The notes beneath the pieces were generated by a model, which did no database searches, was not told the origin of the DNA, and was given only the letters and a program-made list of their open reading frames with translations. Both the position numbers and the translations under genes were made by a program. From Pseudoxanthomonas sp. X-1 (GTDB taxonomy: Bacteria > Pseudomonadota > Gammaproteobacteria > Xanthomonadales > Xanthomonadaceae), in the NCBI RefSeq assembly GCF_020042665.1, contig NZ_CP083376.1:2392001-2456000 (forward strand): 64,000 bases of DNA, in the 5' to 3' direction. Positions 18,260 to 36,256 of the stretch are shown here, piece after piece. Within the stretch, counting starts at the first letter, position 1. Every line of letters starts with the position of its first letter.

Positions 18260-18420
18260 GTGCTTTGCGGAGGCGCGTGGCCGGTGACCGCGTTTCCGAG
18301 CAGGCTCCCCGACCGCCTCTAGCAGCCGAGCGTTGATCCTCTGCCAGCCCCCTGGCCGTGTCTTGGAATGGCCCGAGGCTCGCGCTCAGTGAAGGCCCGC
18401 TTCGGTGGAGCCCTGCTTCC

Positions 18421-18488
18421 GTGGGAGCCGCCATGGCGGCGATGAGGCGCTATCGGGAAAGCTCCATCGCCGCCATGGCGGCTCCCAC
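18421..18488. repeat. Perfect 24-bp inverted repeat
   Basis: Arms at 18421-18444 (opening gtgggagccgcc, with atggcgg following) and 18465-18488 are exact reverse complements, separated by 20 nt. Each arm also contains its own smaller palindrome, gccgccatggcggc. This resembles intergenic REP-type hairpins of Stenotrophomonas and Pseudomonas that start with GTGGGAGC. Confidence 0.85.
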
Positions 18489-18567
18489 AGGGATTCAGTG
18501 GACGCCCTGCCGAACAAGGCCTGCGAACCGAAAGATCAGGACTCTTCAACACGAAGCCCCTGCACCC

Positions 18568-18702
18568 GACGCGCGCGGCAGCGGCCGGCGGGCGGTGACC
18601 GCGCCTAGCGAGGCAGGATGCCGAGCGCCCGAGTCAGGGCAGGATGCCCTGACCGAGGGAAGAGCGGACACCGCCCGCCGGACCGCTGCCTCTCCGAAGC
18701 CA
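18568..18702 (+). repeat. Dispersed nested-palindrome repeat, copy 1
   Basis: About 135 bp, matching 35926-36061 in inverted orientation. The outer stem is ggcagcgg+ccggcgggcggtg (18577-18597), pairing with caccgcccgccgg (18669-18681) and ccgctgcc (18683-18690) with one bulged base. The inner hairpin is gtcagggca/tgccctgac around 18632-18652. Internal landmarks shared with copy 2 are gcgcctagcgaggc and gccgagcgcccgagtcaggg. Confidence 0.85.
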
Positions 18703-18790
18703 CGAAGCGCAACCGCCGCGCTCCGCGTCGAGCGGAGCGATCCTGCTAGAGAACCTGGCTTACGCCAGCGCGGCCAACCTCAGCCGGCGG

Positions 18791-26727: not shown

Positions 26728-26780
26728 GACGGTCTCCGAAGGATCGAGGCCGGGGCACGCACCTGCCACCCCGGCGCGGG

Positions 26781-26849
26781 GTTGGGCAGGCATCATCAGC
26801 ACGGCGGTTCGCGCCGCCGGCGGTTCGAGGAGGAATGCCATCTCCTGTG
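26781..26849 (-). promoter_or_regulatory. Fluoride riboswitch (crcB motif)
   Basis: On the minus strand the RNA reads ggagatggcattcctcc (26845-26829), then cgaaccgccggcggcgcgaa, then gctgatgatgcctgc (26800-26786). These are the conserved 5' and 3' blocks of the crcB motif, including the GGNGATGG...AACCGCC pseudoknot strands and the terminal GCTGATGATGCC. A GC hairpin (accccg/cggggt) follows immediately and could be the expression platform. It sits between rarA and crcB and would switch on crcB when fluoride binds. Confidence 0.92.
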
Positions 26850-26868
26850 GGCCGCGACGATAGCCGCT

Positions 26869-35925: not shown

Positions 35926-36061
35926 TGGCTTCGGTGGGACAGCGGGCCGGCGGGCCGTGGCCGCTTATCCCTCGATCAGGGCATCTTGCCCTGACTCGGG
36001 CGCTCGGCGTCCCGCCTCGCTAGGCGCGACCACGGCCCGCCGGCTCGCTGCCTCGCGCGTC
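35926..36061 (-). repeat. Dispersed nested-palindrome repeat, copy 2
   Basis: The reverse complement matches copy 1 (18568-18702) through gcgcctagcgaggc, gccgagcgcccgagtcaggg and the inner hairpin. The outer stem ccggcgggccgtgg (35947-35960) pairs perfectly with ccacggcccgccgg (36030-36043). Relative to copy 1 both strands of the stem changed together (C-G for G-C), keeping the pairing. It lies between the infA terminator and the clpA terminator. Confidence 0.85.
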
Positions 36062-36256
36062 ATGCTCCAACACTTCGTTCAAAGCAGTCCTGTTCTATTC
36101 GCAGCAGAGCCTCGACCCGGGCGGGCGCGCGGAGAGCGGACCAGGAATGGCCCGCGACGGCGAGTCAGCCAGGAGGGCGGACCGAGCCAAGGAGCCGTGC
36201 CAGGCCGGGGCAAGGCCGGTTGGCGGAGTCGCTTCCCGCTTTCGCTCTGCCGCAGG
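36062..36256. other. Remainder of infA-clpA intergenic region
   Basis: The infA-clpA gap totals 522 bp (35790-36311). Apart from two terminators and the repeat, this part holds no supported gene. It contains several cggaccgag/gagtcag-like GC motifs without clear meaning. Confidence 0.5.

Follow-up and report, generated by a model that had tools for sequence, protein, structure and literature searches.

We identified a family of repeats of about 150 bases, previously unnamed as far as the literature that we searched tells, whose copies are scattered through the genome of Pseudoxanthomonas sp. X-1. The copies share a fold in which a long outer stem closes a three-way junction with two hairpins. 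The fold evolves through compensatory substitutions, as in a structured RNA, although its copies are dispersed as those of a mobile element would be. The reading that we rank first, at a little under an even chance, is a mobile repeat, small and non-autonomous, that would spread and be recognized as a folded single strand by a trans-acting enzyme. A role as RNA is ranked second, and both could be true.

We analyzed a stretch of 64,000 nucleotides from this genome ("the window"), in which a first-pass annotation had reported two mutually inverted copies, at 18568-18702 and 35926-36061. Both lie where it placed them, but the element is probably slightly longer. Copy 1 (18552-18701, plus strand) runs from a 5' CGAAG (18552-18556) to a 3' CCGAAGCC (18694-18701), and the covariance model R1, which was built from 31 copies, matches it at 18546-18704 (plus strand). 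Copy 2 (35927-36077, minus strand) begins on the forward strand with GGCTTCGG (35927-35934), the complement of the 3' CCGAAGCC end, and finishes with CTTCG (36073-36077), the complement of the 5' CGAAG. Copy 1 is flanked by a convergent pair of genes, one for a 70-amino-acid protein (without an NCBIfam match) and one for a phosphoglycerate mutase, and copy 2 sits between infA and clpA, which are also convergent. When folded as DNA, each copy was more stable than 200 of 200 dinucleotide shuffles (z of -6.09 and -5.07).

The annotation had described an outer stem with one inner hairpin. The stem is there: in copy 1, its 5' arm is at 18577-18602 (26 nucleotides, one base less than the 27-column consensus) and its 3' arm is at 18664-18690, both on the plus strand. 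The interior, though, is a pair of hairpins in a three-way junction, of which only the second had been named. On the plus strand, hairpin 1 (18608-18626) has a tandem G.A mismatch and the loop AGGAT; hairpin 2 (18628-18659) has a tandem G.A mismatch, a covarying pair (n-n'), a bulge, and the loop AGGAT. In copy 2, on the minus strand, the 3' arm (35938-35964), the core with hairpins 1 and 2 (35965-36025), and the 5' arm (36026-36052) follow in that order along the window.

The annotation had considered the repeat to be two-copy and had proposed a genome-wide search, which instead found many more. A DNA search gave at least 40 full-length matches, including copy 1, with 86-100% identity (these were the best 40 of 183 candidates). 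Using R1, we found at least 61 matches of 55 bits or more, at no fewer than 60 places in the 4.5-Mb genome, among the best 150 of 10415 candidates. All of the 60 copies are intergenic: 34 lie between convergent genes, 15 have both neighbors on the strand of the element, 10 have both on the opposite strand, and just 1 lies between divergent genes (the neighbors are from codon-usage gene calls that were trained on the window and are independent of any annotation). The copies are mostly at the 3' ends of genes. Across 58 rows from this genome, conservation averages 0.76 and 0.79 in the flanks and 0.93-0.94 in the helices, and most of the inner unpaired positions reach 0.91-1.0 (two are at 0.77 and 0.81, and four at 0.41-0.63). 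This high conservation implies that the core was copied from a common source or is still selected. One place (L197, genome positions 2992599-2992758) scored high with the structure model on both strands (115.6 and 83.4 bits) and is perhaps two fused inverted copies. We also considered a replication-strand bias, which we dropped: 38 of the 60 copies run against the fork here, yet the listed rows of two other carriers, G162 and G276, mostly run with it (origins were assumed, and the rows of G162 and G276 were counted by eye).

Within the genus, 4 of 38 genomes have matches: X-1 itself (69), G035, which we take to be P. winnipegensis NML 130738 (67), G002, which is presumably P. composti GSS15 (22), and G036 (six divergent copies of 38-100 bits). 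Across the Xanthomonadaceae, structural relatives were found in at least 49 of 297 genomes and at least 17 of 54 genera, from at most the 9 best candidates per genome. Their stems differ widely from those of X-1 and still pair. At the level of the class, the core model R2 matched 5 of 369 genomes when the best 12 candidates per genome were scored: X-1, one other member of the family, and three marginal cases (1e-4 to 7e-4). When 14 carriers were searched deeply, each had 3 to 111 matches with E of 0.001 or better, a count that includes weak matches and opposite-strand double counts. A wider scan found at least 119 stretches, with a loose pattern that gave many chance matches in actinobacteria; we retested 35 of these loci, and the 17 that match the core model are all from P. 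winnipegensis or P. composti. One pattern and one 80-nucleotide query gave no hits in collections of phages, plasmids, or viruses, so we rejected a phage or plasmid origin. No earlier name for the family turned up in the titles and abstract openings of papers on REP/REPIN/RAYT, Rickettsia, Xanthomonadaceae repeats, and RsmA.

The first-pass annotation had proposed, from the two copies, that the folded form is under selection, as either DNA or RNA. The many copies, with covariation both within the genome and between genera, support this. In the consensus, the outer stem has 27 bp (26-27 bp across copies); hairpin 1 carries a tandem G.A and the loop AGGAn, and hairpin 2 carries CCC, a tandem G.A, the variable n-n' pair, a bulge, the TCAGGGCA stem, and the loop AGGA. 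In 31 copies, 96.3% of the pair cells hold standard pairs, the outer arms are paired in 95.3% of cells, and the tandem G.A positions are preserved in 29-31 copies. The n-n' pair is GC in 12 copies, AT in 10, CG in 4, and something else in 5. The swap in the outer stem on which the proposal rested, GGGCGGTG/CACCGCCC versus GGGCCGTG/CACGGCCC, is real and polymorphic (GC in 25, CG in 4, and unpaired in 2 of the 31 copies), and the adjacent A/A of copy 1 is indeed G-C in copy 2. Both sides of a pair have changed in 32 cells, versus 10.3 in shuffles. The annotation had also suggested checking covariation with a covariance model, and stem changes do covary: within the genome, covariation was 0.081 versus 0.036 when shuffled (0/500), and in 24 aligned cores, which compare genera, it was 0.392 versus 0.132 (0/500). 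The shuffles leave relatedness in, and gene conversion among copies could contribute to the signal within the genome. When the partners were slid by 1-3 columns, the between-genera value fell to 0.056-0.071. The 24 cores have 81 cells with double changes, versus 17.9 when shuffled. Together with the folding z-scores against shuffles, the covariation rules out a chance palindrome. Alignments A2, A4, and A5 were made to a model, and their pair counts lean towards that model. Alignments A1 and A3 were made with MAFFT: the rows of A1 came from sequence search, and those of A3 from the structure model, except for three copies from X-1. A3 leaves out 9 of the 30 rows of A2 (the six weakest, two that aligned poorly, and L355).

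We also compared 26 sites that X-1 and P. winnipegensis have in common (26 of the 35 X-1 copies with a flank match, some on one flank only). Paired positions differ from one Watson-Crick pair to another in 24 cases, with a mismatch in one genome in 63, and with a wobble in 25. Two polymorphic pairs account for 18 of the 24 Watson-Crick changes, and identity between the paired elements is only 79-99%, so copies may have exchanged sequence by gene conversion.

From one genus to another, the sequence of the stems has been replaced and yet remains paired, and the A(N)GGA loops, the tandem G.A, and the junction bases are nearly invariant. In the 24 cores, hairpin 1 has GGA in all 24; in the loop of hairpin 2, the A, the second G, and the A are present in 24 and the first G in 21. 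The tandem G.A of hairpin 2 is found in 24 and 23 cores, the two junction A's in 24, and the bulged base is C in 21 and T in 3. Hairpin 1 of the relatives is in most cases a simple stem capped by the loop ATGGAT, and the tandem G.A of hairpin 1 is seen in the three X-1 copies of the set. In two sets that span the family, G.T outnumbers A.C by 23:3 and 105:28; the ratio is weaker in X-1 with P. winnipegensis (87:60), and there is no excess in the 31 copies found by BLAST (18:15), two sets in which structure played a smaller part in the selection. The near-invariant unpaired bases and the family-wide excess of G.T over A.C point to one acting strand.

Do these copies belong to a known class of repeats? 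REP, REPIN, and BIME repeats are similar in being dispersed, mostly intergenic palindromes with inverted pairs, compensatory changes, and lineage-specific copies (excerpts of PMC3686654 and PMC2817692), and the inverted-pair arrangement of BIMEs and REPINs is found in this family as well. The repeat could be a classical REP or REPIN that was moved by a RAYT since lost from X-1. It resembles REPs in its intergenic palindromes, its inverted pairs, and its compensatory changes, and the loss of a RAYT is known to leave orphan REPs (PMC3686654, excerpt). However, RAYT (PF01797) is absent not only from X-1 but also from 9 of the 14 carriers, including G162 and G117, which have uniform copies (it is present in the other 5). 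In the genus, 35 of 38 genomes have RAYT, versus 4 of 38 with the repeat, and the core model has 0 matches in 27 RAYT loci. Also, the same source defines a REP or REPIN as a short palindrome with a conserved GTRG tetranucleotide on its 5' side (PMC3686654). The 31-copy consensus has no GTRG at the base of the stem; the X-1 arm does contain a GTGG, which is missing from the arms of G162. The unit, a three-way junction, is several times the size of a REP. We therefore consider the lost-RAYT origin very improbable, and we rejected an ordinary REP or REPIN on the absence of RAYT, the distribution, and the lack of core matches at the 27 RAYT loci. The absence of RAYT and the unlinked distribution speak against a REP driven by RAYT but do not weigh against mobility. 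The first-pass annotation had not recognized the repeat as a named REP family and had noted that it is larger than a typical REP. It had also asked whether the repeat matches a known REP class or a transposon end: the repeat does not fit the definition of a REP, and the transposase search covered the Y1/RAYT family.

Other evidence bears on how the copies spread. In X-1 and P. winnipegensis, CGAAG lies near its expected 5' place in 77 of 98 rows and near its 3' place in 82 of 98. CGAAG is also found, 5' and 3', in 9 and 6 of 14 rows of G162, 9 and 11 of 11 rows of G117, and 3 and 4 of 9 rows of G156, but not in G067 (0 and 0 of 4) or G046 (0 and 0 of 2), with fewer than one expected from shuffles in each of these five genomes. 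In single elements these ends are direct repeats, and the pairing outer arms lie 4-20 nucleotides inside them. Many elements are arranged head to head. In P. composti, the unit is about 305 bp, and its 5' part consists of another element, divergent and inverted; we had considered that this 5' module was a separate repeat, which we rejected once it proved to be a second inverted copy. Such pairs occur at 9 of 14 P. composti loci, or 11 of 14 if copies found only in the genus-wide search are counted, and similar pairs occur in other genera. In X-1, an inverted partner was found at 9 of 61 loci (E of 0.05 or better), including copy 2, whose partner is a decayed element of subfamily B at 36125-36200 (plus strand; 19.2 bits, E of 0.011). 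This partner is weak alone, but it aligns with the better-preserved partner module of P. composti.

At five loci, the element lies inside a single open reading frame that we read as hrpB, antisense at L351, L355, and L356 and sense at L359 and L352. The proteins of L355 and L352 pass the cutoff of TIGR01970 (HrpB, from NCBIfam); the best-matched HrpB stretch starts at residues 279 and 429, respectively, beside inserts at 235-283 and 384-421. Insertion is therefore tolerated in both orientations. In L351 and L356, gaps of about 700-800 bp separate inverted copies; these lie in or just before hrpB, and we rejected a transposase open reading frame there. The Rickettsia palindromic elements (RPEs) are comparable, as palindromes of about 150 bp that are found in frame within protein genes (part of PMC10969869), and the insertions in hrpB are of this kind. 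In contrast to RPEs, this repeat is from other bacteria and is mostly intergenic. RPEs are not known to have this GGA-loop core. Correia/NEMIS, ERIC, and other bacterial MITEs are also small, folded, and non-autonomous, and some are processed as RNA (part of PMC10969869), but the repeat differs from them by its inner GGA-loop core.

These observations favor mobility: there are many dispersed copies with a patchy distribution, and those in some genomes are very uniform; the fold is conserved in a strand-specific way, and its arms diverge in sequence without losing their pairing; copies form inverted pairs; CGAAG marks the ends in several genera; the element has inserted in both orientations, in hrpB among other places; and it has no link to RAYT. 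If the repeat is mobile, the three-way-junction core, with its two GGA-loop hairpins, tandem G.A step, and fixed junction bases, would be the recognition feature, and the long arm-to-arm stem would hold it in place. An enzyme acting in trans would read the folded repeat, probably as single-stranded DNA, and mobility rather than a host function would maintain the fold.

The comparison with P. winnipegensis suggests decay more than gain, and we graded mobility slightly lower because of it. We queried eight sites in that genome, and at none of them did we see a fresh Pseudoxanthomonas insertion: three have known copies, four have truncated remains, and one has no match. The truncated remains, at sites L028, L022, L029, and L030 (stretches L451, L452, L453, and L454), score 18-36 bits and have no core match; the core seems to have been lost repeatedly while an arm remains. 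At site L023, the P. winnipegensis spacer matches neither model, though both flanks are 97-98% identical. Stretches from G032, G027, and P. composti for the eight sites gave no model match. Between infA and clpA, the gap between matched ends in 12 relatives ranges from about 74 bp (P. composti) to about 1210 bp (G036). In eight relatives, the spacer consists of short native sequence, of other filler, or (in P. winnipegensis) of a decayed copy, and the spacers of G032, G027, P. composti, G016, and G001 are short and without the repeat. These repeat-free spacers, like the one at L023, count in favor of mobility. No target-site duplication was legible in the three sites that were aligned by eye, as the repeat-free sites are too diverged. 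No larger autonomous version was seen either. Recent spread is suggested by G162 and G117, in each of which many copies score identically with the core model; the aligned copies of G162 have unlike outer flanks, and those of G117 share a longer upstream stretch. These results indicate that the family is mostly old and eroding within Pseudoxanthomonas; recent spread is suggested only by the uniform sets of G162 and G117. Separately, the decayed P. winnipegensis copy between infA and clpA (L253) is in the opposite orientation, and its hairpins were apparently lost between short repeats, a trace that slippage over a folded template would be expected to leave (the loss was read by eye, and the core model finds nothing in L253).

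Several copies in P. winnipegensis are decayed rather than absent, as they might be if the repeat were an immobile relic, such as a bidirectional terminator or a chromosome-structure site, that multiplied by recombination and that host selection has preserved. The 34 convergent and 1 divergent locations among 60 copies would fit this too, as would the consensus copy, which folds very stably on both strands. However, the loss of insertions from promoters would explain the location equally well, and the baseline in the window (8 convergent and 8 divergent among 45 gene pairs) is too small to calibrate it. Neither the insertions in hrpB nor the uniform copy sets of single genomes fit a relic, and at infA/clpA, native terminators adjoin the element. 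We consider a relic improbable.

The loops suggest another possibility: that the repeat acts mainly as a structured RNA, with transcription coming from neighboring genes and two hairpins per copy that bind CsrA/RsmA, and that it serves as a dispersed RsmA sponge or as regulatory sites at 3' ends. By NMR, the high-affinity site for CsrA/RsmE is an ANGGAX hexaloop directly on a stem, and binding is weaker without the N (PMC4005645, excerpt). The loops of the repeat are of this published A(N)GGAX type and alternate between ATGGAT and AGGAT. Among 118 distinct copies, the strict CAN0-1GGANG rule holds for hairpin 1 in 103 and for hairpin 2 in 72, and 79 of the 81 copies with two such motifs have a GGA-to-GGA spacing of 26-29 nucleotides. 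The family-wide excess of G.T over A.C also favors RNA, but the BLAST-found copies do not show it. An RsmA-binding sRNA derived from a 3' untranslated region is known in Xanthomonas; however, a Xanthomonas RNA with all four of its GGA motifs changed still bound RsmA, so the number of GGA motifs is a poor predictor (both from part of PMC7694677). Furthermore, where both neighbors are codirectional, the element is sense in 15 cases and antisense in 10 in X-1, and 9 and 9 elsewhere (24 versus 19 in total, p = 0.54; the tally leaves out P. winnipegensis, where the upstream gene was uncalled in 25 of 40 short loci). This lack of preference, which also fits a mobile repeat, and the presence of the element in hrpB in both orientations argue against a cis-acting RNA.

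Known CsrA/RsmA-binding RNAs include CsrB, RsmZ, and those named TwoAYGGAY and CsrB motif. Like them, the repeat forms hairpins whose loops carry A(N)GGA (part of PMC4005645), but it has tens of dispersed copies and a 26- to 27-bp closing stem. Covariance models for CsrB, RsmX/Y/Z, and TwoAYGGAY did not match the window at the gathering threshold, one X-1 copy down to E of 5, or one relative down to E of 10; no other Rfam family fit the repeat in these scans, and we rejected a known Rfam RNA. We consider a primarily RNA role a strong rival, though less probable than mobility. A combination, in which a mobile repeat disperses two-site RsmA-binding hairpins, would be a transposon-borne RNA sponge, moved by a kind of enzyme not yet linked to palindromic repeats; this seems rather unlikely. 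If it were true, bursts of copies would rewire or titrate the Csr/Rsm regulon.

Either a new hairpin mobilizer or a mobile RsmA sponge would make the family useful. It is a structurally conserved repeat found across at least 17 genera. As the arms have been replaced between genera and the core kept, the family offers a natural experiment in what is recognized by an enzyme that reads hairpins or by a protein that binds RNA.

Finally, we noted some other features. In 7 of the 118 distinct copies, the loop of hairpin 2 is ACGA or ATGA, with C or T for the first G (L350, L348, L389, L430, L437, and L438), so that the GGA rule is broken repeatedly. Next to copy 1, at 18418-18490 of the window, is another dispersed palindromic repeat, REP-like and of the GGAGCCGCCATGGCGGC type, which has many matches in G027 and G032. 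The window also contains a fluoride riboswitch (RF01734) on the minus strand at 26780-26854 (44.6 bits).
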